Source of the DNA: Membranipora membranacea
Taxonomy: Eukaryota > Bryozoa > Gymnolaemata > Cheilostomatida > Membraniporidae
Direction: 5' to 3'
DNA: 64,000 nucleotides
NCBI GenBank assembly: GCA_914767715.1
Contig: OU612073.1
Span: 1,924,001 to 1,988,000, forward strand
Both the position numbers and the translations under genes were made by a program. The notes beneath the pieces are model-generated. The model saw only the letters and a list, made by a program, of their open reading frames with translations. It did no database searches and had not been told where the DNA came from. Of this stretch, positions 4,101 to 59,677 are shown one piece after another (within the stretch, counting starts at the first letter, position 1; each line of letters begins with the position of its first letter).

Positions 4101-7100
4101 AGGCTCTGCTAAATTCTGACCAATTTCTGTGGCCCCCAGTGGTTTGAAGTAAGTGAACTGCACTTTATATGTTATGAAAAAAGGAACTTGATCTGATAGT
4201 TGATAATCCTTCACAGAGGTGCGGCATCATTTAAGTCTTAAAACCAGCACTCATATGGCTATATACTTTAAAGTAATTTTCACTAATCTGATGTTCACGA
4301 GGCATATAATAGACAGTTTTCTGAGCTCTTATTTATGCCTCAATTCAGAGTTGTCCTCTCATCAGTTTGGTACTTTTATAACCCACGCCGCATAGGAAAA
4401 ACCTGCTGAAAGAGGGTTATCTTGAACACCGCTTATGTTAGGATAAAAATGATTTTTGATTCGGAGTCTGCACTGTTGAAAACCCTGTGAGACAGGGTTT
4501 CCAAATCATTGGAGGCTTGAATGTTGATAAATTTTAATTTTAGTGACGTAACTCATGAACAATTCTGCCAAATTGTTCGCAAAACAGGCAGAAAATACTA
4601 TAATTGACTATCCAAATACTAAAATTATTTCCCAAACTATGTCCATAAGAGTTTTCAATGTTGCAGATTCTGAATCAAAAATAATTTTTATCCTTTTATA
4701 AGCGGTTTTCAAGATAACCCTCTTTTCAGCACGTTTTTCCTATGTGGCGTCGGTTAAAAGTACCAAACTGGAGGGAGGACAACTCCGAATTGATGCATAA
4801 ATAAGAGCTCAGAAAACTGTCTATAAATGGAGCATTGTTGAGATGTTTTGAAAATTCAATTTGCAAACATCCGAAAGGCAACAACATGTGGTAAACTGTT
4901 TAGAAAGGCTGTAAAGATGTGATGCAGCGCCTTTTTATGTCAGTACTGAAGATTTTCTAATGTGCAAGGTATTTTTTATTTACCTTGGAAGTACATGTAT
5001 GGAACTAATTTTCATATAAGATTGAAGTCTTGTGTGATGTTGGCTTACCTGCATTGCAAGAGGATATTCGCCCAATGCCCCAGGAATCATATCAATACCA
5101 TCGGTATCTATCAACTCGGCAAATGTGAGTTCTAAAGGAGCTCTACAAGGCAGAAAACATATATAAACACCAACTCAGACTAGAACAGTGTTACACATTC
5201 ACAGCTAGGTCCTGGTGGGGGGGGGAGGAAGATTTGATTTTGAAAGTAGACCTGGACTAAACTTCTATATTGAGTTGCCCATCCCTTTAACAGGAAGGGA
5301 TAAATCCATGCAAAACTTAACATCATCATATCATAATATCATTACCAGTAAAAGGATGGAGGTAAAAGAGGGGTGCTTGGCACGTTGAGCATGTACAGCC
5401 TATCAGTTGAGTCCAATAATCTTAATTTAATTCTGTATACGAATTTGCTTGAGTTCTCAAATTGTTAAAGTCACCCATCACCCGCATTGGGAAATGATTA
5501 GCTTATATAGACACAAAGTAACTTTTGTGGTACTGTCGCTACGGTGCAGAGAAGAAACTCCTATCAAAGAGCCATTCTGAAATCAGTGTCCGTTCCTGGT
5601 CAGCTTGGGTCTCAAGTGGGTGGAAAGCTCCCCCCCCCCATCCTCAGCTTCTTTATCTCACAATCAGGATTCACCCATACAATGGCATCGGTTCTCAAAA
5701 TCTGGGGTTACATACAACATCAAATAGCCAACTGGGGGTCTTTCAATTAGAAACAGCGATCCTTTACTAAAGGAAGTTATCACAATCACATCGCTCAAAA
5801 TTATCACTCACTTGGTCTTTCAATTAGACAAAATCGCTCGCAAATCGCTCACTCAAAATGTATATAGTTCCATCAAGTGACTGAGCGATCTGAAAGCGAG
5901 AGCCTAGCAGGTATTGCTCACTCAGATTGCAATTTCGGCTGTTTTAATTGAAAGACCCCCCTGGGTCACTGCTTTGAAGTTTGAATTGACTATCCATAGA
6001 GTAGAACATCATTTACCTCATTGTGGCAGCCCCAGCAGAACAAATTGGCTGTTAAGTAAGAAACAGAAGATTGGGCTGCCCCTAAAGACGCAGGCCCGTA
6101 GTTCTAGGGGAGGCAGGGACGCTCTGCCTCCCCTAGAATGCTCAATAGAGTGGCCTAAAATTGCTATAATCGAATATTCCATATCAGAATCAGCTCATTT
6201 GGGACTTCTATTTGCTATGGTCAGTTTTCTGAGCTCTTATTTATGCCTTAATTCGGAGTTGTCCTCTCTCTAGTTTGGTACTTTTAACCCACGCCGCATA
6301 GGAAAAACGTTAGGATAAAATGAGTTTTGATTAGGTGTCTGCACCATTGAAAACCCTGTGAGACAGGGTTTCCAAATCATTGGAGGCTTGAATGTTGATA
6401 AATCCTAATTTTAATGATGAAACTCACGAAAAATTCTGCCAAATTGTCCGCAAAACAGGCAGAAAATGCTATAATTTACTATCTAAATACTAAAATTATT
6501 TCCCAAACTATGTCCATATGAGTTTTCAATGCTGCAGATTCTGAATCAAAGATAATTTTTATCCTATTATAAGCGGTTATCAAGATAACCCTCTTTTCAG
6601 CACGTTTTTCCTATACGGCGTGGGTTAAAAGTACCAAACTGGAGAGAGGACAACTTCCAATTGAGGCCTAAATCAGAGCTCAGAAAACTGTCTATTTGTA
6701 TCATTAAAACACGTTGAAGGCTGGAACTCAGGGGAAGCAAACCCATCCTGGTGTTACTTCACACCCTCAATAATTTCCGCCTCCCCTACCACTTTTTCTA
6801 AACTACGCCCCTAAAGAGGGACGCAAGGTGCCCTAAAAATTCATACTGAGAATGTGATACATCCTAGAAAACAAGAATGCATCCTAGAGGTGAGGCCATA
6901 AAAGACCTCCTGAACTGGGTGCGCAGCATGCTGCCACAGCTGAAACTGGCACTGGTCAGTCGTTAGCAGTGACATTTTGATCTTAGTCAATAGGCCGATA
7001 AGTGAGTACAATCAACCAACCACAATAATAATGCATCTGTCTTGTAAATTCCCTAGCAAAGGCAAGATAGTGTCAGCCATCAATCAAAACCCATTCCATT

Positions 7101-11096: not shown

Positions 11097-11959
11097 TCAT
11101 GTCCTGTCTATTCTCCATTTTCTGATATTCTGTGAGGTTGTAGCTCCTCCTCCTCTTCCACGTGTTGTCACCACATCCTCTGTGAAAAGACAAGAAATAT
11201 ATCAGCAAATTTAAAATTATAATTCTAATTTAACGCATTATTTATTTATGGTCCATTTTAAAATACCATGTTATTGGCGCAGCCCTACTAGCCTAAACAA
11301 AGTGTTACTCTTATCTGGTTCTGTATTTTTAAAGAACAAGTTTCTTTCCTCTGTGAACGTAGAGGAATACGGGAAGCTGTGTATCAAGGCCTCTCAATAC
11401 TCGACATTTACAAGGATTGACCCTGTCACCACAGAGGGAACAAACTTGTTCTAGTATTCATATGAACGACTGATATATGACAGATAACATGTGTGAGTGC
11501 TGATTACGATACAGGGTCAAGGATTGATATAGGGCTGGGATAGTGGTATATTATTTAGCTTAAATCTATTTGACTGAATGAAGATTTCTGCACTGGTGTG
11601 TAAAATAGACTACACAAACAAATATTGATCCACTTTTATATATTTCATCTGTTGATTCAAACTAATATTCAAAACAAAGGGACTGTATAAGTTTGGAGTT
11701 AGCAATGATTTATACCGTCGAGCATGGAGATTGTAGTTTGTGGAGGATTAGGATCTCTGACATCAGTAGTAACATTAGCTGGATGCTCTCCTAGATGTCT
11801 CATATCTATTCCTGGTTCTAGGTAGAGTGGTCTGTCACACATAGTACTGGTTATCTTAGGCATCTGAGCAACATACGCCTTTTCTCTATCCTGAGGTGAT
11901 ACCATCTGCCTGAGTTCATCAGTTCTCTGCACGCTGCTCTTACTGACAGCTTTCTGGAC
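11097..11959 (-). CDS. Alternative C-terminal exons of the Roco-caspase gene
   Basis: The exon starting 11959 finishes p10 (KAYVAQMPKITSTM then RPLYLEPG). It can end two ways. Read straight on, it stops at TAA 11699-11701 after SMLDGINHC. Alternatively, donor GACG|GTATAA at 11716 joins 11179 (TTTTCACAG|AG) in the right phase and gives an Arg/Gly-rich tail (EDVVTTRGRGGGATT...) ending at TGA 11097-11099. The GTATAA donor is not ideal, so both forms may exist. Confidence 0.6.
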
Positions 11960-14900
11960 CTGGTGAGACAGAAAAAAAAACTTCAAAGATGCAATACCAA
12001 AATACCGTGTTTGTAACAACGTCCAGGTCATGGCAGTGGCCACAACCATCAAAGTGTTGGTTTGATTTATTCCCATCGATACTTATACTCGTTGTACCAT
12101 ACTCATATTATTACTTGAATTTGGATTCATTCTTAGATGCACCGGCATATGATAGGCCACTAATGAGATTGAAATTAGCATAAATCAACGACAATGAGGG
12201 CAGGCAAATCCAATATATGATTATCTCCACATCATCAGACAAGCTCCCTGATTAGATTATTTAACCAGTCTGATATCTCAGACTAAATAACCATTTACTG
12301 TCACCTAGAGTTGATACACGTATATATATATATATATATATGAAATAAACTTACCTTATTTACTGAAAAGCAGAAATAATACACATATTTATGAAACAAA
12401 CTCACCATATTCCCCAGAGTAAGCAGGTGATGTTGGTGAGCATACTTGTAGAATGTCACAACCACAGCTCTGATGAATTGAGATCCCGAATCTGTCGATC
12501 TTATTGACACAAATGCTGAAGAAGAAAGGTCCAATGAGTGAACATAACAAATAAAAACTGACTTGAATACTGGTTGAATGTGATAATATAAGTTTGGAAT
12601 CAGATAAAGAAATTTTACAAGAAAAACAAGAGAACAATTTGATATCAAAATGGTTTAGTTCTGGAGATATTTCATACAAACTTCAAATGTTTATGATGTG
12701 CAATCTGCAAACTCATCACTTTATATTTTGTTGAGTTTTCCCATCTATACTGTGGAAAATAGGCTCAGTAGGTACTTACTATCAAAGCTGGCTTGCATGA
12801 CAAACAGATTAGCTACAGATATATCACTGGGATCTGAGTCTACATGTCCATAATCTACTGTCTGTGATGTCACTTCCTGTCTGTTATCTGGCTGATCAAC
12901 AGCTGTGTTGCTTACCGAGTCTGTCATCATCTCTCGTTTAACTGCAAATCAAAAAATCATCGCAAGATATGACTTAAATAATGCTGAGAGATTGTTGGTA
13001 CAAAACATCTTATAGCTTAAACTTCTGTTTCTAGGATACGAATTGTTGATCATGTAATTTTGAGCTCAGATAGAAACGCTAACTGTTCTGTCTACATGTC
13101 ATAATGTTTCAATTCTCATGGATGTACTTACCTCCCGCACAGGCCTGTATTATTAGAAGTTTTGGTTTTCCTCTCATAGCCGGGAAGGTTTTAGCAGATA
13201 ATAACTGATAGATATCAGTAAGTTTGATGTGTTTGTGATCAGATCCGATAACAGTTCCTTCAGCACCATGACTAGTTATAACCAGTACAAACATTCCTAG
13301 ATCTTTGTATACCGACTGGCCTGTCTGATCTACCAGCTGAGTCTCTCTGTGAATTTCTGTCACTATATCCTTTATAAACAAACATGTCCTCACTTTATTT
13401 ATAAAATAAATTTATTGATTATTTTATAAATATAGTGAGGAAATTGAACAGGCTTCATCAATGATATTGTCAGGCTCTGTTAATTGGATGAAAGCTCAAT
13501 CATTCTAAATTGTCGGATATTAGGTCCAATTTACATTCACAATTCCCAAATGAGACGATATTAGAACATCAGTGTAACAGGTTGTATTTAATGCGTTACC
13601 TCTGAAGTGTAGTTTTTATACTCTCCGTTTACAACAAACCCAAAGTTCTCCAGCATATTCTTCATATTCTCATGATCAATGTCAGCACCCTTTCTCCAGA
13701 CTTGTTGACCTTGTTGATTAGTGTACTCATACTTATTAGATAGTATGAGGGCTCGACCTCTTGTCTTAGTCATCTTATATCTCATCTAAAATAGGGTAGG
13801 GCATATCATATGTCTTGAGATTAGTCGGTAAACACAAATCAAAACCGTATGTTGTTTTGACCTAGAACTCAATATTTCAACCCTATTTCAACTTATAGGA
13901 TCTTTGTTTGGTTTATTTATTCAGATTTGTAGTAAGATAAGATATCATATTTAAAAGATATTCCTGGAGTCGTCGGCTTTCTCAGCGAGCAACCACAACT
14001 CCTAAACATAACTCTTGTTCATATTCAAATCTTCTCTGTAAAGCTCTGAGCAGGATAAATATTTCTGAGCAATTACTTTTTATTCGTTAGCAAGTAAAAT
14101 GCAGATATAGTCTCACTTAGGCTGTCATTTGTCTATAGCCGAATAAGGAGAACTTACCGTTTCCCATGAGATAGTTGACTGCGAGTCACTGAGGACCAGT
14201 GGTAAGTCGATTATTGGAGGTTGTGATGTCATCAGCTCTATGATCTCATCTACAGCTTCCTCATTATTCTGTGTATCATTTCTGACATTCTCTCCACCAG
14301 CTGCTACTGCTCTGTGTGTCTCTTCAGGTTGTATAGCTGTGGGGAGACAATTTGATTGAATTGTGAGTGAATCTGGCCAATTAAATAGAGAATAAAGAAG
14401 TCTGAGAAACAATATATAGATATATAACTCAAGAAGTCAATGATGATATTTAGGATAATAATGATATTACAATCTTGTTATTGAAGGATAATTTAGATTG
14501 GCTGTACAGACCCAGACGAGCTGTTGAGTCCGGTGGCTGGAGAGTGGAGATATAAGCGCTGACTTTATCTTTATCTGGTTCTGTCAGCGATAAACCTGTC
14601 GGAGAGGAGAATAAATAATTTTATGTCGCTGACCGAATGAATAAATAGGATCAAGCTTAAATTGATGATCAAAGGAAGTAGTTATGTAACATTAATACAC
14701 ACTCAAGTACCATGAAAAAAATTGATCAAAATATTTTAATTGAATGGCTGAAAGTATTCGGAAATAAATTTACTGAAAGAAAGGACATGTACAAGAAACA
14801 AGATTTGTGTGGGATCTGCTCACACTTACACGGAAATCTTAGAGGCCTCGGTACTTTGAGTTGTCCACCGTTAGTTTGGTCGTTACAGCAGGGCACAGGG

Positions 14901-17900
14901 ACAGCGTTAGAGAGGAGTGTGCTCAGCTGATGAGAAAGAGGTAGATCTTTGTTAGTGTGTCTCAGAGGAGAATACCAATCTGGATCTTCTTCTGTCTCAG
15001 GCTCAGACTCGTGTAGATACAGACAGTGAGCACAGTAGAACTCACAGATAGGTCGAGCTGCGACCCAGATAGACAGCAGGTGCTTTATGAGAGAGTCTGT
15101 GATGCCAATCAGTTGCTTCCATGAAGAATCTAATTCCTCCACAGGTGTATCTACCTGTACAGTGACTCTGCGATCAGCACTGCTGTGTACTACACGGCTT
15201 AAAGTGTTACCATGGTGTACCATAGCACCGTTACGAGCTGTTCTGATACGGAGACCGGGGTCAGTGAAGGGGGTCAGATATACACAGGTTAGCAGGTAGT
15301 ATGCGTACGAGGGAGGTGATAGGCCAAGAAAGTTTATATCCACTCTAAGTTGTAGAAGCTTATTGTCAGTAGGAATAAGGTCCAGGGCATCAGTGGAGAA
15401 GTAAGGGATGATGAATGTATTCCTTGGTGATTTATGAACTGGACCACACAAGAGATGGAAAGCCTTAAGCAGTGGCAAAGCCACCTCATATGGAAAGTTT
15501 GTTTGACAGAACAAGTTCAATAGAACAGCCTCATCAACAACTCCACTCTGCAACAGACGATCAACAAGTTTTGTGTATCTCTTTTTTGAGATCATCTCAT
15601 TTCCCACAGATATAATGCTGGGTTGGGCTGCCAGTCTAGAATCCCACCGATCTCTAAATCTGTGATGAAACAGGAGAGCGATTGCGTCGGTGACGGCAGT
15701 AAGTCTATGGAAAACATATCCCCTCAGACTATCCTCATGTTCAAACCACAGAACTCGACCAACATTGTGCATATAACGGAGCACAGTAAGATTTGCATCT
15801 CCTGGAAACATTTTTGTGACTTCGGTGAGAAGAATGAAGGGCACATCACTCATCTGATCAAAGAAGAGAAGAAGCAACTCCCAAAGTTTTGGGATTATTG
15901 TGAAGAATGGTTCAGCTCTGATCTGTAGGGTCTGCAGTATCTGGAGGATAACCTCCTTACTGTTATCACTGCTATCTAACTCAAATATATTCTGTGAAGG
16001 AAAGATTTCTGATGAAGATGAAAAGAGGGCAATACTACAGAACTCAGAGGGACCTTTAGTAAATCTCTTCTCTTCCTCTATCATATCCCTGATTAGAGTA
16101 GTCAGAGTACGTAGCAGCTCTTTCTTTCTGGTTTCAAAGCTAGACACATCAGAGAATTTGTCTTTATGGGTGAGGACAAGAAGGGGATGGCCTAGAAGAG
16201 GACATGACACATATAGATGTGACATGTAGTCCAGGACTAGTATCCTCACCGCTTTTTTTGGGCCACCTGATGACAACAACTCCTCAAATTGCTCCATATT
16301 GACAACAACGACTGGAATATAATTACTTCGTATTACCATATGATAGGAAATATGGTAAATACGGTCACCTCCAAAATCAAATACTTTCAACTGTGACTCT
16401 CCAACTGTGATCTCATCCATTTTGAAAACCTCAGTAGTGTCATCCTCAATTCCTTCTCTGTTACGATATGTCAGACTTCTTTCCTTTGTTTTCAAACTAT
16501 TAATGAGACTAGTTTTACCTGCCATTCTGTTACCGATCACTGCTGCAGATACTATAGGGAGCCTTATACCACCGTGCTGTTTGAGATCTGTGTAGTATTT
16601 TCTTATAGCCTGCAGGCCCTGCTCACAGACTGCATAGGGAGGAGATGTCAGAGCTACACAGTCATCACAGTCCAGCTCCTCTAGAGCAGGTAGAAGAAGA
16701 AGACGAGAGTCTAATGATTGGAGTTTTCTGTTACCCCAGAGGTTCAGTGTCTTGAGCTTCTTCAGTTGTATAATGACTGGTGGGAGAGATGTGAAGCTAT
16801 TACCTCCTATATTTATGGTCTCCAGGTTCGAGAGATTTGACAACCTGAAATAATAATTGTATGAGCTCTAAGAATTTAGATAAAAAACAGACGTCTATTC
16901 TCAATATCAGTCTACAGCTCTTTTGGCACCATTGCCTGAAATAATTGTAAAGCATCAAAGGGCAGATGATAGGGTTGCTCAAGTATCACAAATATAGACA
17001 TGACATAAATTTAATTCAACACTGTGTTAATTGCATCTTGCATCATTGGGTGATTATATCTGGTAGGTCGTAACTTGTCTCCCTCCGCTCAATATCTCAA
17101 CCCATCCCAACAACTCCTCTCCAATGAGTGAATTTATGATTAATTTGTATTTATAATGGCTATGTGCGGCTTCAGTACGTTTGTGTACAAATCCCAAAAT
17201 AATCATTCGTGGCCGACATCAATGAATTTTTTTTTAAAGTTGGTGTAATCGCACATAGGCAACTTAAAGTAGACTGCCCTGTTCATATTTTATTATTTTA
17301 TTATGTGTGATAGTTTGGCAACTTTTTGAATAGGCAAAAATTGACATCTTAGGTCAGATTTGCAGCCTCTTTGTGTTTTTGGGAAATTCTCACAATTCCT
17401 CGAAAGAGGTTTGTCTGAAGAGAATCATATTGTCTTTGAAAGGGTGAAAGAAAACCTCATGGCCAACATAGTCTCGCTTCTCAAGTCTTATATGGGCTCA
17501 TTTAATGAGACAGCAAGATGGCGCTGATGGCTACTACCTCCACTACTATCGACATCCTCAACATGGAAGCTCTACACCTAATTTTATCATCCTACCAAAA
17601 GCTTCATAGGCGTACCAGGGCAAAAGGTTCTTTTACAGATGCGATTTCCACCATGTTGAAAATGATCAGATGTTTATCAGCTGTTCTCAGCTCATCTCTA
17701 CATTTTAGGTATGCAGTTGACTCTGCAGGCATTTTCTATCTACTTTGCTTGTTGAGAGTTGAGGGACTTCAAATGAAATTGAACCGAAACATTTTTATTA
17801 TGGGAACTCAACTCTTTAGGAGAAAAATCTGAATTAAATCTCATGTAAGAGCAAGATGGCTCTGAATGTCGCCAACCAATGCTTTGAAAATATACAGCGA

Positions 17901-18516
17901 AGAGGCAAGATATTGGTTTCAGAGAAAAACTTCCGCATTTTCCAAAAAGCCGGATTTGATGACGACAATTAAAAAACTATGGTAAACACGTCAAACATCA
18001 CTACTGTATCATATGTATATTTTGGGTCTACATTATTTGAAAATGTTGCTTGTAGTATAGACAAAACGGAAAATATTTTTTTACTTAATATTTGCTCCTA
18101 AAACGTACAAAATATATTTAAAGACATCGAGAATTCGTCTTCATGGTGTGAAATCCTAAAATTATTAGTTGTCTTCTTCTTGTACAGAAAAACCAATCTT
18201 TAAACTTAACTATATCATGATCATTCTTAAAGGACAACTGTCGTATTCCTATTGGCTGAGGGATGGGAGCTTTCACCATTCCAGTCAGTTGCATGTTAAT
18301 GCACTGATCTTTCTGAATTTGGGTAACTTGAAATTTGAGGATGGCTTTAAAAGACCAGCGGAAACATACATACTTATATCAGTCACATACAGAATAGACA
18401 CATATACCTGGTACTTATTATCAGTATATCGAATATCTATATAATTAATAAATGTGATGATGGTGTTTAAAAAAACCTGTTGGAAAAATTTATATATATA
18501 TATAATATAGATAAAA

Positions 18517-18558
<42 letters not shown>

Positions 18559-21500
18559 CTATCAGTCATAATATACAGAACACACACACCTACCTGGTAC
18601 TTATCTCAGTGAGCCCACAGTTGTGCAGACTCAGCTTAGTCAGCTCAGTCAGCTCATACAGACCATCAGGTACAGATCTGAGTGCTGGGTTAATACTGAG
18701 GTCCAGGGTCTGTAACTTAGTCAGCTGTGATATCCTGTATTATATATAATATGAGTCAATTATAATTACTTGTGCTGGAGGATTAATATTATACAGCAAG
18801 ATATTTCTCAAACTATAAATTAAATTTTCTTCATTTCGCATGAATATGATCAAAGTATATCATAATATCTCATATTAAATCCGAATATCTATATAATTAA
18901 TAAATATAGAATTATTCTCTGGCTACATGAGTGCAAAGATGAATTTACGATACTGATATCAGTCATAATATACAGAACACACACACATACCTGGTACTTA
19001 TCTCAGTGAGCCCACAGTCGCTCAGACGCAGCTCAGTCAGCTGAGTCAGCTCACAGAGACCATCAGGTACAGATCTGAGTCCTGGGTTTCTACTGAGGTC
19101 CAGGATCTGTAGCTTAGTCAGCTGTGATATCCTGTATTATAAATAATATGAGTCAGATATAATTAATTGTGCTGGAGGATTAATATTATACAGCAAGATA
19201 TTTCTCAAACAATAAATTAAATTTTCTTCATTTCGCATGAATATGATCAAAGTATATCATAATATCTCATATTAAATCCGAATATCTATATAATTAATAA
19301 ATTTAGAATTATTCTCTGGCTACATGAGTGCAAAGATGAATTTACGATACTGATATCAGTCATAATATACAGAAAACACACACATACCTGGTACTTATCT
19401 TAATGAGCCCACAGTTATACAGATACAGCTTAGTCAGCTCAGTCAGATCATACAGAGCATCAGGTACAGAGGTGAGTGCTGGGTTATCAGTGAGGTCCAG
19501 GTACTGTAACTTAGTCAGCTGTGATATCCTGTATTATATATAATATGAGTCAGATATAATTACTTGTGCTGGAGGATTAATATTATACAGCAAGATATTT
19601 CTCAAACAATATATTAAATTTTCTTCATTTCGCATGAATATGATCAAAGTATATCATAATATCTCGTATTAAATCTGAATATCTATATAATTAATAAATA
19701 TAGAATTATTCTCTGGCTACATGTGAACAAAGATGAATATACGATACTGATATCAGTCACATACAGAATAGACACACATACCTGGTACTGATATCAGTGA
19801 GAATACAGTTAGACAGATTCAGCACAGTCAGCTCAGTCAGCTCACAGAGACCATCAGGTACAGATCTGAGTGCTGGGTTATCAGTGAGGTCCAGGTACTC
19901 TAACTTAGTCAGCTGTGATATCCTGTATTATATAAAATATGAGTCAGAAACAGTATCTTGTGCTGGAGGATTTATGTTATCATACATTTTTAAATGATAA
20001 ATCAAATTTTCCTCATTCCACATAAACATCATCAAACTATATCATAAATCTCATATTAAATCCGAATATCTATATAATTAATAAATAGAGAATTATTCTC
20101 TGGCTACATGAGTGCAAAGATGAGATTTTACAGCACATGTTGTTTAAAATTTTATATATTAGTACATATAGAACATGGCCAAGTTCAATACACAAGTTTA
20201 AATACTTTAATTACTAAATTCCTTGATGGTATGCAGTAAAGTTTTTTGTTAAGTTCCAATATTAAATCTAATCATATATTTTCAATTTGCCTATGTATGT
20301 TATTTGTGGTGTATACTGGCCACCAATAATAAAAATGGGCGATGCAAGAGTAGCCGGTGTCACATAGAAGGCTGCGGATAGATTGTTTCATGTAAGGTTT
20401 TCTCATTTTTAATTCCCATCAAAAGAATGGAACAAAACGACATCAAATAAGACTTAATTCAAGCTTGCTGTTGGATAAGAATATTTTGCTAATGCTTTAG
20501 TAAGTGTGAGTAAGCGGGCTGTGAGACAAGGATAGAGATAATAGGAGCCTCGCCCGGGTCATATCACTGATAAATAACTCAGAAATATAGCATAATAGTA
20601 TCATGTGTACTCTACTTACTTCTGCCATTCAAATGTGCCCTGCCTGAGAGAGTCTTCATCAATAGCGTCCAGTCTGAGCTGCAGGAGATGAGGAGCTATA
20701 ACTGGTAACCAGGAGGGGATACTCATCAGACGAGAGATACAGAGATGAGTGATAGAGTTATCTCCCTTCTCTAACTCTATCTCCTCTACTGTCATCACTC
20801 TGTAGTCTGTGTACCCTAAGAGAGGTATCCTCACTTTCTCCTCCTCTCCTGAGTGTCTGTACCAGACTCTGTACTTCTCTATAATGTGATTATAATATAG
20901 ATAAATATAATAAGGCATTAAAGATCATAAATATTATAATTATATTGGTCTTTGTGTACTCATAATATTTATATGGGAATGTAAGATAACAGTTAGATAA
21001 ATTGTTGTCAACAATACTATAGAATTTAGAGTGAAATACAGGTATAGGTTGGTCGGTGTGGTTTTAGTTGTCTGATCTTAGGTGCATAATATGTTACATT
21101 TGAGGCGCAGTCGAGTTGATAAAACACACCAAACAACCTGTGAGAATAGGAATGCAACAACATTATGAGTTGTCTGACCTTACATGCCAATGTCTATTGC
21201 TTATAAAAACCGTCAGTAGGGAGAATTATCCTTGCTTTTAGCTATTGCAACAATTTCTGTTTCCTAACATTAGGAAAAGTTCCCATCAGCTGCTGAATTT
21301 ATGCATCACTAATCATGAGTGTAATATTACAGTTTTTTTTAGTTTGACAAGGTTAATCAACTCCGCCTCCCCCGTGGGTTTCATCATAGACAATGACAGT
21401 GAAGAAATCTTACGATTGATATGAGTTTCGGCAAGTTGTGTGCTGAAATATATGTCCTGTAAATAGTGATCAACCACGCATCTATGTATAAAGGCAAACT

Positions 21501-22254
21501 GTTAATGGAAATACCCATCCGGGGCCAACTGGCCATCTTTTTCACCTTGTATCAATTTCAGCATGTCACTATAACAAAGCCATCTGGTTGCAAATATTGT
21601 AGCCGGATGGCCTAGCAGCAATTTGTATTACAAACCCATCCGCATGGCTGTTTGGCAACCATTGGTTGCCCAATACCAACTAGAAAGGGCATTCATCAGC
21701 CTACTGATGCCGTATACCCATCCGTATCTGTTTTTATCCCAGTAAACTATTCTGGATGGTTTCCCCCTATAAAAACCCATCTGGCAACTGCTGGTTGCCA
21801 AGTTGTCATCATGCAGCTGACAAATTGACCGGTTGGTACCGTAATCCCTCACCTATAAGTCACCGGACTTATAAGTGAATCACCCCCCTCAGAAAAAATA
21901 AAAATGCTCCAGCTATAAGACACCCCACAGCTATAAGACACCCCACCGCTCTAAGACACTCACTACACTACACTCACTACAAATGAACTAAGTAGTTTTG
22001 GGAAAAAAACTGCCCTCAGTGGGTTTCGAACTCACAACTCCATGTTTACAAGTCGAACACTCTACCACTGAGCAATTTCCAAGGCTAATTGGTGCAAAAT
22101 AACCTACTGAAATGGCATAAGATAAATTAGATTGTCAAACAATTTCATCCTTACCGTCAGAAACTGACTGTCCATCACCTTTAGCTGAGGGAGGAGGATT
22201 ATTTCTCTTTGAAGAAGGCTCAGCTTTTCTGATACATGATAGGTAACTTCCCAT
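11097..22254 (-). CDS. LRR-Roc-COR-caspase fusion protein (Roco-caspase), 13 exons, about 1407 aa
   Basis: Exons (minus): 22254-22155, 20878-20620, 19922-19782, 19528-19388, 19131-18991, 18734-18594, 16844-14830, 14595-14512, 14336-14158, 13785-13600, 13369-13132, 12941-12780, 12515-12406, 11959-11716, 11179-11097; the last two may be replaced by a read-through stop at 11699. Phases agree at every junction and the lengths sum to 4224 nt. Domains: myristoylation signal (residues 1-10); leucine-rich repeats (about 121-360); Roc GTPase with P-loop GNRMAGKTSL (about 412), DFGGD (464) and THKDK (533); COR (about 625-720 and beyond); acidic linker; caspase p20 with SHG His (about 1163) and QACAG Cys (about 1206), 43 residues apart; p10 with SIRSTDSGSQFI. 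No death-fold prodomain is seen. By family knowledge Roco proteins dimerise through COR and caspases activate by dimerisation, so I infer a GTPase-controlled cell-death or innate-immunity protease. The fusion itself is read directly from phase and motifs. Confidence 0.86.
11505..11702. repeat. Dispersed repeat copy shared with 28013-28225
   Basis: GGGTCAAGGATTGATA, AGTGGTATAT, TTTGACTGAATGAAG and GTGTGTAAAATAGACT appear in the same order and orientation here (in the last intron of the Roco-caspase gene) and inside the hAT-type element at 28 kb. The two copies are diverged by a few insertions. Confidence 0.75.
12406..13785 (-). CDS. Caspase domain exons of the Roco-caspase gene
   Basis: Exons 13785-13600, 13369-13132, 12941-12780 and 12515-12406 give the p20 and p10 core. 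The order is YKMTKTRGRALILSN; RKGADIDHENM (the Arg-rich S1 strand of p20); FVLVITSHGAEG with the catalytic His; LLIIQACAG with the catalytic Cys; an Asp-rich linker (VDYGHVDSDPSD) where p20 and p10 would be cut; then FVSIRSTDSGSQFIRAV, the p10 S1 motif that is usually S-W-R-x-x-x-x-G-S-W. Trp to Ile and Gln variants suggest a shifted substrate pocket. Junction phases 0, 0, 1+2 and 1+2 all agree. Both catalytic residues are kept, so activity is expected; it is a caspase, not a metacaspase. Confidence 0.9.
14830..16844 (-). CDS. Large Roc-COR exon of the Roco-caspase gene
   Basis: One 2015-bp exon (672 codons) holds the last LRRs, the Roc GTPase and the COR domain. Roc: G1 GNRMAGKTSL, switch-I Thr in DDTTEV, G3 DFGGD, G4 THKDK (the THxD form is typical of Roc). 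COR: a Pro-x-x-Trp-like start (IIPKLWELL), a YMHNVGRVLWF motif as in the YLHxxGxVLxF core of Roco and MFHAS1 proteins, and VFHRLTAVTDAI after it. Downstream Cys-His residues (CEFYCAHCLYLHE) and LRFPC close the exon. The acceptor is TATTTCAG and the donor CCGT|GTAAGT. The catalytic DFxGQ Gln is replaced by Asp (DFGGD), so GTP hydrolysis may be slow or helped by another residue. Confidence 0.9.
18487..18556. repeat. (TA)n microsatellite
   Basis: Two runs of pure TA (about 20 and 38 bp) separated by a short interruption, in the intron just 3' of the last LRR cassette (minus strand) and less than 100 bp from its donor site. A similar TA run at 12321-12341 lies in another intron of the same gene. 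Confidence 0.95.
18594..19922 (-). repeat. Four tandem LRR exon-intron cassettes (three of about 397 bp)
   Basis: Four exons of exactly 141 bp (19922-19782, 19528-19388, 19131-18991, 18734-18594), all phase 1 at the start and 2 at the end, each code for 47 residues or two LRRs. All begin ISQLTKL and carry LDL, NP-L-SVPD and C-LT-IST or close variants. The introns between them are nearly identical, sharing for example GGCTACATG and CTCATATTAAATC. Exon ends are spaced 397, 397 and 394 bp apart. A stray piece of the same intron at about 20050-20118 marks the ancestral left edge. This is recent unequal duplication of exon plus intron. Residue changes concentrate on the variable LRR strand positions. 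Confidence 0.93.
20620..20878 (-). CDS. Exon 2 of the Roco-caspase gene: LRR-capping region
   Basis: It codes for about 86 residues, from EKYRVWYRHSG to GTFEWQK, with hydrophobic periodicity (LLQLRL, ITHLCI) suggesting an N-terminal cap and a first worn LRR. The acceptor ATTATAG|AG completes a Glu codon with exon 1, and the donor AA|GTAAGT passes phase 2 to the LRR cassettes. No other domain is recognised. Confidence 0.75.
22015..22088 (-). pseudogene. tRNA-Thr(TGT)-like sequence, probably a SINE head or tRNA pseudogene
   Basis: On the minus strand GCTCAGTGGTAGAGT is a good A-box and D-arm, CTTGTAAAC resembles the Thr-TGT anticodon loop, and GTGAGTTCGAAACCCAC is a B-box and T-arm. The anticodon stem does not pair and the acceptor stem matches at only about five of seven positions, so a working tRNA is unlikely. 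A T-rich run follows the 3' end on that strand. It lies just downstream of exon 1 of the Roco-caspase gene, in its first intron. Confidence 0.5.
22155..22254 (-). CDS. Exon 1 of the Roco-caspase gene: N-myristoylation signal and basic linker
   Basis: The ATG at 22254-22252 has an in-frame TAG only 12 bases upstream, so no earlier start is open without splicing. The protein begins MGSYLSCIRKAEPSSKR. Gly2 with Ser6 matches the N-myristoyltransferase consensus, Cys7 could be palmitoylated, and Arg/Lys follow, as in Src-type membrane anchors. The exon ends GAC G|GTAAGG in phase 1. Purines at -3 and +4 suit initiation. Confidence 0.7.
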
Positions 22255-55913: not shown

Positions 55914-58661
55914 CTATGTACTATTCAGCCTATTTAAAGTTGGGTTCATGTACTTATAAACACGCTGTTTGAAAGAATAGCGTTTGACATCAGTGTTGAT
56001 AGTGCCTTTGATGGCGCCTATCCTTGTGTGATGGTGGGAATGTGACACAGTGACCATTTCCTCATTAACTGCAGCTGTACCGGTGATGATTTTAAAATAT
56101 AACTTTAAGTCAGCACCCTTCCTTCTTTCAAACAATGTTTGCCATCCGACTTCAGCCATATGGGCACTGATATGGTCACTACGTCTTTTTTGATGTGCCC
56201 ACCTAAAGGCTTTTCTGTTTATGGCCTCCATGATATCTATATGCTTACCCAAATGAGGAGACCAACCATGAGAGGCATACTCTAAGATTGGTCTGCAAAT
56301 AGTTTTAAATGATACTGTTTTAGTCTTAGTTTTAGCTTTTTTTAAGTTACGCATAAGCATATGAAGCGTTCTTGTGGCTTTCTTGCAAATCTCTCTGATG
56401 TGCTTGTCAAAAGAGAGGTGTGCATCTATGTGCACACCTAGGTATTTTACAGATGAGACGTGTGATAATTGGGTAGCATTTAAGTTGTAGGTTTGGGAAG
56501 GATTGTTGATGCTGGCCTGTGCCTGCCTCTCGACTCTCATAAATTCACACTTTGAGACGTTAAAGCACATCTGCCAGGTGTTGGCCCATTTTGCAAGGTT
56601 ATCTAGATCAGACTGTAAGTCAATTTCATCCGCTTGTGAGTTGATTTGATGATATACCAGAGAGTCATCAGCAAAAAGTCTTAAGGTGGAGTTATTAATG
56701 CAGGACGGCATATCATTGATAAAAATGAGGAAAAGAAGAGGTCCAAGTACACTACCCTGGGGCACTCCTGAGGTTACATTGTGATGTGAGGATTTTGCAC
56801 CATTCACAGTCACAGAGAGTGTACGTTTGGACAACCAGCCTGATATCCAGTCACATGTTATAGGATGCACACCTATCGCCTTAAGCTTTAAAGCTAGCTT
56901 CCTGTGCGAGACAACATCAAAAGCTTTAGAAAAATCAAGTACAGCAAGGTCGGTAGGGACATTTAGATCATATGAGTCCACAAGTTCTGAGATTGTTGTT
57001 AAAAGTTGAGTGTCGCAACCGTGCCTTTTTCTGAAACCGTGCTGGCAGTCTGAAAGCAAGTGGTTGGTGTCCAAAAAGTTGTTGATGTCATGGCAAATTA
57101 TATGTTCTAATACCTTAGATGCAATACAAGTCATGGATATTGGGCGGTAATTGAGAGGTGCTGTTCTGGAATCCTTTTTGTGAATAGGTATTACGTTAGC
57201 CCGTCTCCAGTCATCTGGAACCAGACCCGAATCAAACGAGTATTGAAATATCATTGCTAAAGATTTATAAATATAATTTGCTAGGAATTTTAAGAGTGCA
57301 GAGGAGAGGCCATCAGGCCCAGCGCCTTTGGTCCTGTCTAGGGTTTCAAGTTGTCTTAGTACCCCTCTTGGTTCAATGGTAATTTTAGTAGTCTGTTTTG
57401 CGATGTTGTCAATAGTTGGTGGGCATCTACCATCATCGACCGTGAATACTGAACTAAATGAGGAGGCAAAACATTCGGCAAGCTCTGCTGGTGAGTTTTC
57501 ACTACAGCCATCAAGTTTTTTAATAGTATTGTTATTACCACGGCGATTTGCTATAAATTTGAAAAGAGGTTTTGTATCGCCATTTTCTAGCCTATCACAA
57601 ATGTGTCTATTTAAGAATAAGTTGTAGTCTCTATTCATGAGAGTATTGCACAATTTGGATTGAGCAGCTAGTTTGTCCCTGTTTTCTTTGGTGTTATAGA
57701 TGATGCTAGTTTTATGCCACCTTTTTCGACGGGCAATCTCTCTCTTCGTTGCCATCGATAGCCAAGGGCCTGAGTTGGTTTTCCTAGTACGACTAGGAAT
57801 ATTTGCACTAGCGGTGCGGTGGATACAATTTTTAAAAGTTTCCCATACCCTGTTCACTGGGGCTTTGTTTTCAATAAGTTGGCATACATCTTTCTCAAGA
57901 TCAAAGCAGTCTACCATGATGTCTGGGATATTTGCTTTTTTGAATATGTAAAATGGGGTGGTGTTATTATTCTCATTTGTATGGGAAACAGGGTCTTCTG
58001 AGAAAAGATCAAAGAGTATTATATCGTGGTCAGAACAACTTGGTTGGCTCGTTGGAGTGGAGAGGTCAAGGTTTGAAAGGACAAGATCGAGAGTATTGCC
58101 ATGCCGATGTGTTGGGAATTTGACATGCTGCTGTAAGTCAGTGGAATCTATGAAGGTCAGAAACGATTCATGCATATGGATGTCTTGCCTTTTTTTTAAA
58201 TTACATGTAGTCCAATCTATATCAGGTAAGTTGAAATCGCCAACAATGACTTGTCTGCACGATGATTCATTTTTGCACCATGTGATGAAGTCATCAACAT
58301 TCCTAACTGAAGGCCTATGGTAGTATACCGTAAGATCGAATGAAAAGCCGCCGACACTAGCAACAATTGATAACAATTCACCTGTTTCTGCAGGTAAGAC
58401 TTGGGTGACAACAATGTTTGAGGAGTCAAGAACGCCAATTAGCACACCACCTCCACGTCCTACAGAACCTGTGCGGTCTAACCTATAGAGAGTGTAATTT
58501 ATACATATTTCTTTATCAGTAATACATGGGATCAATTTGGTTTCAGTTAGAGCAAAGATATCAGGTTTGTGCTGGTTTAGGGCAACTTCCAGTTGGTGAC
58601 TCTTTCCACTGATACCATTGCAATTCCAGTTCATTATTTTAATTGAGTGCTTGTTATTCAT
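55914..58661 (-). CDS. LINE ORF2: endonuclease and reverse transcriptase, 915 aa
   Basis: The N-terminal apurinic-type endonuclease (residues about 1-225) has MNWNCNGISGK, ALTETKL, VGDFNLPDIDW and CSDHDII motifs. Reverse transcriptase (about 430-760): LNYRPISMTCIASKV, LAVLDFSKAFDVVSH, TSGVPQGSVLGPLLFL and LRLFADDSLVYH with the FADD catalytic pair. The C-terminal part has RPILEYASHGW and a Trp-rich segment. There is no RNase H domain, as expected for CR1/L2/Jockey-type LINEs. No stop or frameshift. It copies the element RNA at a nicked target (target-primed reverse transcription, known for the family). Exact clade (CR1, L2 or Daphne) is open. Confidence 0.93.
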   Translation of the reverse strand: MNNKHSIKIMNWNCNGISGKSHQLEVALNQHKPDIFALTETKLIPCITDKEICINYTLYRLDRTGSVGRGGGVLIGVLDSSNIVVTQVLPAETGELLSIVASVGGFSFDLTVYYHRPSVRNVDDFITWCKNESSCRQVIVGDFNLPDIDWTTCNLKKRQDIHMHESFLTFIDSTDLQQHVKFPTHRHGNTLDLVLSNLDLSTPTSQPSCSDHDIILFDLFSEDPVSHTNENNNTTPFYIFKKANIPDIMVDCFDLEKDVCQLIENKAPVNRVWETFKNCIHRTASANIPSRTRKTNSGPWLSMATKREIARRKRWHKTSIIYNTKENRDKLAAQSKLCNTLMNRDYNLFLNRHICDRLENGDTKPLFKFIANRRGNNNTIKKLDGCSENSPAELAECFASSFSSVFTVDDGRCPPTIDNIAKQTTKITIEPRGVLRQLETLDRTKGAGPDGLSSALLKFLANYIYKSLAMIFQYSFDSGLVPDDWRRANVIPIHKKDSRTAPLNYRPISMTCIASKVLEHIICHDINNFLDTNHLLSDCQHGFRKRHGCDTQLLTTISELVDSYDLNVPTDLAVLDFSKAFDVVSHRKLALKLKAIGVHPITCDWISGWLSKRTLSVTVNGAKSSHHNVTSGVPQGSVLGPLLFLIFINDMPSCINNSTLRLFADDSLVYHQINSQADEIDLQSDLDNLAKWANTWQMCFNVSKCEFMRVERQAQASINNPSQTYNLNATQLSHVSSVKYLGVHIDAHLSFDKHIREICKKATRTLHMLMRNLKKAKTKTKTVSFKTICRPILEYASHGWSPHLGKHIDIMEAINRKAFRWAHQKRRSDHISAHMAEVGWQTLFERRKGADLKLYFKIITGTAAVNEEMVTVSHSHHHTRIGAIKGTINTDVKRYSFKQRVYKYMNPTLNRLNST

Positions 58662-58714
58662 TATCTGCCTTCTTCCAACCTATGTAGTCAGAAAATATGT
58701 ATTTATATTAGTTA

Positions 58715-59677
58715 TTAGGATGATTGACTTTGAACGGTGGCATTCTTTGCAGCTGTAGTTATTGGTTCACCATTATTATCAATATTGCACCAAGTTTGGT
58801 TATCACTGGTGCGACGTTGTAGATCACCACTACGAACTCTATATTTATTATCTGGAAATTTTTCAGCTAGTGACCTTCTTGCACGCCTCATGATGAACTC
58901 TTTCTCTTGTTCGTCTTTGGTGAGGTCCAGCGTGGCAAACATTCCTTCTTTGTGTGGCGAATTCAGACTATTAAACTTACGAAGGAAATCTATTTTCATA
59001 ACCTCAGTGTGAAATTGAATCTTGACTGGTCTGGATTTTGATTGGCCCTCATTTTGTTTCAGCGAACCAAGCCTAGAGATCCTAGTGGTGGAATTAGGGT
59101 GAAATTGGAGATAATTCAATAGATTACATACGTCCTTGTGGGTGTCAACCTTTTCTGAAAGGTTGTGCAATATAGCTGATTGTTTGCGCTCTAGTTTCTC
59201 TCTGGTGAGAGAATCCTGTTTTGCCCTTTCATCAAGACGCTTTGCAATGGCCTTGATTTCAGAACTATCTTCCTTAGATTCCCCTGTAACCTGAGCATAT
59301 GTTTTTGTCATTTTGTGGCTCTCTGTTACAATTTTTGTCAATGCATCTAGTTTTGTTTCAAGTTGAGCTAATGAGGGTTTAACTCCTGGTCCATAAAAAT
59401 AGTCAGGCAGCTTAGGTTGACACTTAGGACAGTACCATAGGAGTCCTGTCCTATTTATTATTTTAGTAAATTCTGACATAGTAGTAATGTCCGCCCATTC
59501 TGGTAAGCATGTAGTGTGGGTTGACAGATAACAGCAGCTACATTTCAACGCTGGCTTTTTGGCAATGGCTCTGGTACATTTCTGACAATTGTTTGGGTTT
59601 GCTTGGATAGGTGTTATGCCAGGGCGGCTAGGGCTTGCCAGAGGGCTGCGGGTTCTCATTGGGCTGGGCATCACCAC
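58715..59677 (-). CDS. LINE ORF1: PHD-finger nucleic-acid-binding protein, 320 aa
   Basis: Residues about 31-85 form a Cys4-His-Cys3 PHD-type finger (CQKCTRAI, CSCCYLSTHTTCLPEW, WYCPKC). A charged coiled-coil stretch follows (ERAKQDSLTREKLERKQS), then a region with RPVKIQFHTEVMKIDFLRK that resembles the RRM-like core of L1-type ORF1 proteins. It ends in a Gln/Ser tail. ORF1 of this kind would coat the element RNA. ORF2 begins 53 bp after its stop, so re-initiation is likely. Confidence 0.85.
   Translation of the reverse strand: MVMPSPMRTRSPLASPSRPGITPIQANPNNCQKCTRAIAKKPALKCSCCYLSTHTTCLPEWADITTMSEFTKIINRTGLLWYCPKCQPKLPDYFYGPGVKPSLAQLETKLDALTKIVTESHKMTKTYAQVTGESKEDSSEIKAIAKRLDERAKQDSLTREKLERKQSAILHNLSEKVDTHKDVCNLLNYLQFHPNSTTRISRLGSLKQNEGQSKSRPVKIQFHTEVMKIDFLRKFNSLNSPHKEGMFATLDLTKDEQEKEFIMRRARRSLAEKFPDNKYRVRSGDLQRRTSDNQTWCNIDNNGEPITTAAKNATVQSQSS

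Follow-up and report, generated by a model that had tools for sequence, protein, structure and literature searches.

We analyzed a 64,000-nucleotide (nt) stretch of the genome of the cheilostome bryozoan Membranipora membranacea (the window; coordinates are positions within it unless a contig or locus is named) that contains, on the minus strand between 22254 and 11097, a candidate gene for a protein in which leucine-rich repeats (LRRs), a Roc GTPase, a COR-like region and a caspase are predicted to follow each other in one polypeptide. The genome searched comprised 18 contigs with 339,339,785 bases, of which C9 carries the window; the published assembly tzMemMemb1.1 has 339,374,674 base pairs (bp) in 21 scaffolds (PMC10290214), and the searched sequence is without some of the small pieces. 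Exon reading and assembly gave 15 candidate exons (Table 1). Without exon e8, the remaining 14 form an in-phase path of 4,140 nt that encodes 1,379 amino acids (aa) and has a single terminal stop. An earlier note on this DNA had proposed one minus-strand gene here with LRRs, Roc and a complete caspase in phase, and the 14-exon path bears out this prediction. The note, which gave no exon list, had also stated that the exon lengths sum to whole codons; checked on the 14-exon model alone, this holds without e8 but fails if e8 is spliced at its evident GT donor at 14471, because the resulting 125-bp exon causes loss of the frame before e9. Two GT donors inside e8 that would keep the frame, at 14512 (GG/GTCTGT) and 14518, are both poor.

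Domains of the predicted protein

In Pfam searches, the 1,379-aa model matched LRR_4 (115 bits), Roc (30.9 bits; cut-off, 27) and Peptidase_C14 (109.1 bits; cut-off, 21.4), the last over positions 1 to 233 of a profile of 233, and e7 alone matched Roc with 32.0 bits. This hidden Markov model check of the joined protein places both Roc and Peptidase_C14 above the cut-off. The motifs GNRMAGKTSL, DFGGD and THKD are located at residues 412, 464 and 533, and the caspase motifs SHG and QACAG at residues 1134 and 1176, which confirms on the model the earlier claim of a 43-residue spacing between the catalytic His and Cys. Based on sequence, the central region is a predicted Roc GTPase with P-loop, DxxG and TxKD-type motifs, as in Roco proteins, and the C-terminal region is a predicted caspase (C14A) with a complete p20 plus p10 fold and catalytic His and Cys. 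The caspase part matched PDB chains of caspase-2, caspase-3, caspase-9 and CED-3 (best E value, 1.2e-14), while profile A1, which is based on the paralogue alignment, matched chains of CtRoco and LRRK1/2 across LRR-Roc. SHG, QACAG, RKGAD and SIRST are all kept in the window copy; we take the Arg of SIRST to be the S1-pocket Arg and assign both Arg-bearing motifs, RKGAD and SIRST, to this Asp-specific pocket. The N-terminal MGSYLSC presumably represents an N-myristoylation/palmitoylation-like motif, and the N-terminus is probably lipid anchored. At E values of ≤1, the 1,379-aa model had no Pfam match to a death-fold prodomain (CARD/DED) or to a NACHT or NB-ARC ATPase.

The COR assignment of the earlier note fared less well. 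COR-A was not among the matches of the full model at the same threshold, and e7 alone gave an E value of 0.18. The assignment draws on matches among the paralogues: 14 of 17 aligned paralogues, and 6 of 7 in another set, matched COR-A at E values of ≤1 (best, 5.6e-5), and in the sole member with a score shown, COR-A reached 22.7 bits versus a cut-off of 35.3. Roc was matched by all 17 aligned paralogues at this threshold. A single-sequence AF2 model of e7 (predicted local distance difference test score, 32) was not used.

Table 1. Candidate exons of the predicted LRR-Roc-COR-caspase gene in the window
Exon	Positions	Strand	Features
e1	22155..22254	-	N-terminus MGSYLSC; phase 1 out; homologue MGSCLSC in L012
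e2	20620..20878	-	Precedes LRR exons; phase 1 in, 2 out
LRR cassette exon 1	19782..19922	-	141 bp, phase 2-2
LRR cassette exon 2	19388..19528	-	141 bp, phase 2-2
LRR cassette exon 3	18991..19131	-	141 bp, phase 2-2
LRR cassette exon 4	18594..18734	-	141 bp, phase 2-2
e7	14830..16844	-	2015 bp; last LRRs, predicted Roc GTPase and COR-like region; phase 1 end at T/GTAAGT
e8, optional	14471..14595	-	125 bp with donor 14471, frame-breaking
e9	14158..14336	-	Linker segment VDEIIELMTSQPPIIDLPLV; 179 bp; phase 1 in, 0 out
c1	13600..13785	-	Caspase; RGRALILSN, RKGAD; Pfam C14 24.9 bits
c2	13132..13369	-	Caspase; predicted catalytic His (SHG) and Cys (QACAG); Pfam C14 43.9 bits; checked against paralogues
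c3	12780..12941	-	Caspase; inter-subunit linker bearing Asp and p10 start
c4	12406..12515	-	Caspase; p10, SIRST
c5	11716..11959	-	Caspase; p10 end and tail
c6, last exon	11097..11179	-	Stop TGA

Probable connection of the Roc-COR and caspase exons in paralogues

Copies of e7 share between 97% and roughly one-third identity with the window copy. Their frame is open in 18 of 19 copies (broken in L020), and in 17 of 19 the last aligned Roc-COR codon is directly followed by TGTRAG, a phase 1 splice donor. Using strict site filters, we screened 11 sequences for a single linker exon that would join e7 to the caspase in phase, and found such a path in 6. In the window and L009, this path runs from e7 to c1 through the 179-bp e9, while in L015, L016, L017 and L021, one 170-bp bridging exon that begins like e8 and ends like e9 leads from phase 1 of Roc-COR to phase 0 of the caspase. 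In all three of the more divergent loci screened (L030, L031 and L032 on C3, C1 and C11, respectively), a 69-bp phase 1-1 exon with canonical sites leads from Roc-COR to a divergent caspase. Locus L012 has lost LRR-Roc-COR and retained e1 and the caspase, and the phase 1 end of e1 fits the bridging exon (phases by eye). Between e1 and the linker of this locus, at about 5160-5370 on the minus strand, lies an additional acidic exon that reads by eye as phase 1-1.

The ratio of nonsynonymous to synonymous substitution rates (dN/dS) was 0.07-0.46 for e9 in seven comparisons (one partial and one with a stop), 0.05-0.35 for most caspase exons and 0.60-0.94 for e8 in the four of six comparisons that gave a defined value. 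As judged from sequence, e7, e9 and most caspase exons are under constraint. The distances of Roc-COR and caspase agree across 16 loci (r, 0.91; 0 of 5,000 permutations). Between the window and L009, dS is very unequal among exons, from 0.04 in e7 to 1.29 in c4, which suggests gene conversion. A second copy on C9 (Roc-COR, C9:2169719-2171731; c2, C9:2168021-2168257) has 100% identity to the window after rounding, with a slightly lower Roc-COR score; this copy may reflect recent duplication or conversion. Altogether, the paralogue comparison supports, at the DNA level, that LRR-Roc-COR and caspase form one gene, and the DNA indicates the order, an in-phase path, the identity of the domains (COR excepted) and constraint on both halves.

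A large family in which Roc-COR is mostly followed by a caspase

Two Roc-COR queries identified 65 and 69 places, corresponding to at least 124 distinct Roc-COR places. The first query gave 67 rows (best 66 of 288 candidates), two of which were removed as second pieces of split places, and the second gave the best 69 of 312 candidates. The c2 query identified at least 150 places (best 150 of 227). A caspase exon is present on the same strand within 12 kb downstream in 79 of the 124 Roc-COR places, and within 2.5 kb in 77; a caspase exon on the opposite strand within 12 kb downstream was found at none. For the first query alone, c2 is present on the same strand within 12 kb downstream in 53 of 65 places, and the number with a same-strand caspase within 2.5 kb is likewise 53 of 65 when both caspase lists are used. 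When these 65 places were shifted by 5-60 kb, a mean of 1.95 (maximum, 6; 300 draws) were paired within 2.5 kb, so that chance is unlikely to explain the 53 pairs observed. Among 20 loci chosen from caspase matches, 14 of them on C9, 18 have the Roc-COR core; because of how these loci were chosen, their agreement is not unbiased, and the tests on 65 and 124 places are wider.

Of the 45 unpaired places, 35 are on C3. The three that were fetched (L029, L030 and L031) all contain a divergent caspase in which SHG and QAC are present; in L030, the one scanned against Pfam, its second exon scored 26.5 bits, above the Pfam cut-off, and its first 14.1 bits, below it. The window copy and all Roc-COR-linked loci that were checked keep the catalytic Cys and also the His, the latter in SHG, THG or GHG. 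We observed GHG in place of SHG, with the His retained, in c2 of L012, L015, L016, L017 and the first L021 copy, and QSC in place of QAC in L027. In L001, L002 and L007, for which Roc-COR linkage is not established, one catalytic motif is absent from the aligned stretch. Locus L028 has caspase exons and an upstream match to the LRR part, with no Roc-COR match in 9.9 kb, and is possibly an LRR-caspase gene without the GTPase. Roc-COR is accompanied by very long single-exon LRR arrays in L031 (2665-6000, minus strand) and L032 (3-3830, plus strand), where a simple pattern counts 20 and 27 repeats, respectively, in the portions fetched. We found no LRR-Roc-COR-caspase frame without introns; in these two loci, the long frames are the LRR arrays, which end at the usual splice site.

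Diversification of the LRRs

In 10 copies on C9 (L017, L020 and L021 excluded), the ratio of nonsynonymous to synonymous differences per site (pN/pS) was 1.62 for LRR codons 1-66 of e7 versus 0.21 for Roc codons 95-230. For the LRR cassettes, 24 exons (21 distinct) from 9 of 14 sources (the window and L009-L021) fit a strict pattern; the other five sources gave none, although some of these do have LRR matches by tblastn. The positions denoted x in xxLxLxx are exposed in the LRR structure, and the variable residues of the cassettes sit on the xxLxLxx positions. Among the 21 distinct exons, pN/pS was 2.22 at 10 exposed positions (bootstrap, 1.48-3.88) and 0.80 at the other 36, with the limits that pairs are non-independent and silent counts small. 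These 10 of 46 positions account for 66% of the amino acid differences, a share reached by 0 of 10,000 random sets. The exposed positions had a pN of 0.32 and a pS of 0.14, and the other positions a pS of 0.07, while the 60 nt of upstream intron, compared ungapped, differed by a median of 0.18 and a mean of 0.29; because flanking introns are more divergent than silent sites in the exons, the pN/pS ratio may be inflated. L009 and L013 share three cassettes with the same DNA sequence. Based on these sequence comparisons, the predicted exposed LRR face is undergoing diversifying change.

Proposed function as a one-chain receptor-protease

We consider it likely that the predicted polypeptide, with an LRR sensor, a Roc GTPase, a COR-like module, a linker and a complete caspase, functions as a one-chain receptor that unites sensor, switch and protease. 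Similarly, a germline repertoire of such receptors, comparable to those of NLRs and R genes, is the best reading of the family and a probable one. Initiator caspases are activated by dimerization, and a link between Roco dimerization and caspase activity could underlie the proposed mechanism. In this scheme, a ligand on the LRRs would alter the nucleotide state of Roc by hydrolysis or loss; upon loss of GTP, COR would pair two chains; the two caspase domains would then meet, become active and cleave the Asp-bearing linker; and the active protease would kill the cell or cleave an inflammatory substrate. An adaptor or death-fold would be unnecessary, giving an NLR/R-protein-like receptor with the executioner built in. 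Each of the ligand, nucleotide, dimer and cleavage steps is inferred. An artificially dimerized caspase is described to cause apoptosis (PMC2575513), and the bacterial Roco protein CtRoco is described as mainly a monomer with GTP and a dimer without nucleotide (PMC6337361). By analogy to CtRoco, GTP would keep the caspase inactive instead of triggering it. The paralogue comparison supports the architecture in the earlier proposal, with sensor, switch and protease on a single chain; the direction of its GTP switch would be reversed by analogy. A bypass of adaptors through LRR-caspase fusion had already been put forward for amphioxus in 2008 (PMC2575513).

Alternative readings

Several observations weigh against one chain with this function. 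The case for one gene is made from DNA. In the window, splicing of e8 at its evident donor disrupts the frame, and this copy could therefore yield a caspase-less product. In 5 of the 11 sequences screened (L010, L022, L023, L024 and L025, the last mis-anchored), there was no convincing one-linker path. The COR region is below the Pfam cut-off, and the COR part alone gave no credible PDB match (best E value, 0.57); the dimer rule for Roco proteins is taken from a bacterial protein. For c5, dN/dS was 0.83 in L016 and 0.55 in L021. At 1 of the 124 places, a same-strand caspase match is upstream, and 42 are outside the paired (79) and inspected (3) sets. Finally, the Roc-COR and caspase distances are uncorrelated among seven diverged loci (r, 0.16; reached by 1,349 of 5,040 permutations), and modules may thus have been exchanged between copies. 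The DNA-level basis, the e8 frame break and the five sequences without a linker path would also fit two adjacent genes, one for LRR-Roc-COR and one for the caspase, that duplicated as a pair, as would the first caspase exon, which opens with ATG behind an acceptor. Weighed with the conserved phase 1 donor and open e7 frames, the in-phase bridging exons in two diverged subfamilies, the coupling of e1 with the caspase in L012 and the constraint on the linker e9, this arrangement appears improbable. Even less probable is that most of the copies with a caspase are non-functional remnants left by tandem duplication: the broken e7 of L020 and a stop in e9 of the second L021 copy are what such remnants would show, but the e7 frame is otherwise open, caspase exons are constrained and the exon match is free of stops in 148 of 150 c2 places (best 150 of 227).

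The behavior of e8 raises a further alternative. With lengths taken from the alignment, e8 ends in ATT/GTAATA (125 bp) in the window, L009, L011 and L018, and in A/GTATAA (123 bp) in L010, L013, L014, L019 and L020. In the window copy, the predicted frame is safe only without e8 or with e8 spliced at a poor site. These two donor classes, the higher dN/dS of e8 compared to e9 and the in-phase join of e7 and e9 would be compatible with e8 as a regulated cassette, in which skipping gives the caspase receptor and inclusion a caspase-less LRR-Roc-COR decoy, while in sister copies with the 123-bp e8, both forms keep the caspase. We regard this claim, including its part on the sister copies, as possible but doubtful: the poor in-phase donor at 14512 is present in all 10 aligned copies and might be chosen instead, the second gene of L021 (the tenth copy) has neither the 125-bp nor the 123-bp donor, and the basis is again DNA. 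As for function, bryozoans recycle zooid tissue, and instead of an immune receptor the protein might be a regulated caspase that serves development or the turnover of colony tissue. Recognition of changing targets is a better fit to the many-copy arrays and to the diversifying change concentrated on the exposed face of the LRRs, and we find a role in tissue turnover rather unlikely. Returning to the one-chain receptor, we rate the chances as even for the full proposal of about a hundred or more receptor-proteases that are diversified by shuffling of 141-bp LRR cassettes and positive selection on the exposed face, are lipid anchored and replace the chain of receptor, adaptor and caspase, with a frame-shifting exon that could toggle the protease in some copies.

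Other features in the window and genome

Two long frames of 921 and 320 aa lie on the minus strand at 55914-59677 of the window. Judged by eye, the longer frame resembles ORF2 (open reading frame 2; endonuclease and reverse transcriptase) and the shorter one ORF1 of a non-long-terminal-repeat retrotransposon. On C1, five Antennapedia-like homeodomain matches with 62-92% identity are located on one strand at C1:21407689-21468413 and probably represent a Hox cluster. The 92% match is in keeping with a bilaterian and speaks against a sponge as the source of the DNA.

Relation to known systems

NLRs and plant R proteins form germline repertoires that combine an LRR sensor, a nucleoside triphosphate switch and a death output. 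By analogy, the bryozoan family would share these four features; it differs in that the predicted protein has a Ras-type GTPase and its own protease, and no match to NACHT or NB-ARC (E ≤ 1). If the one-chain reading is true, a large immune repertoire of the R-gene type exists in an animal lineage, with a caspase built into each receptor.

The LRR-Roc core is shared with LRRK1/LRRK2, CtRoco and other Roco proteins, and a candidate COR follows it. The C-terminal caspase sets the bryozoan family apart, and the available text of a review of Roco proteins (PMC6337361) does not contain the word "caspase". If the one-chain reading is true, whether a Roc-COR switch can license a protease by dimerization could be tested on one purified protein, which would bear on LRRK2-type switching. 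In amphioxus, LRRs-caspase and TNFR-caspase fusions were proposed in 2008 as direct "shortcuts" past the usual pathways (PMC2575513). These fusions likewise join a recognition domain to a caspase with QACXG, and complementary DNA is reported for TNFR-caspase; as far as that paper is available, it contains neither Roc nor COR as a whole word and does not mention LRR selection or a large family.

The earlier note knew of no well-described animal protein with this domain order. In agreement with this, we found no paper on an animal LRR-Roc-COR-caspase among the titles and abstract openings listed for open-licence articles in PMC (20 of 75 in one listing), but the order itself has been predicted for bacteria, in which caspase is among at least 24 C-terminal effector domains of proteins with LRRs, an AP-GTPase (Roc) and COR (Kaur et al. 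2021, PMC8195603). The bacterial systems resemble the bryozoan family in the predicted order of LRR, Roc, a COR or COR-like region and effector, in fast-evolving LRRs and in having several paralogues per genome. In the available text, they are predicted systems, with 11 copies cited in one bacterium compared to at least 124 Roc-COR places in the bryozoan, where a caspase was found or read at 82 of 124 places and can be aligned with animal caspases across both p20 and p10. For the bryozoan, the bacterial-type order is seen as in-phase paths in DNA, with COR below the cut-off. If true, the bryozoan family would be a eukaryotic counterpart of bacterial LRR-Roc-COR-effector defense.

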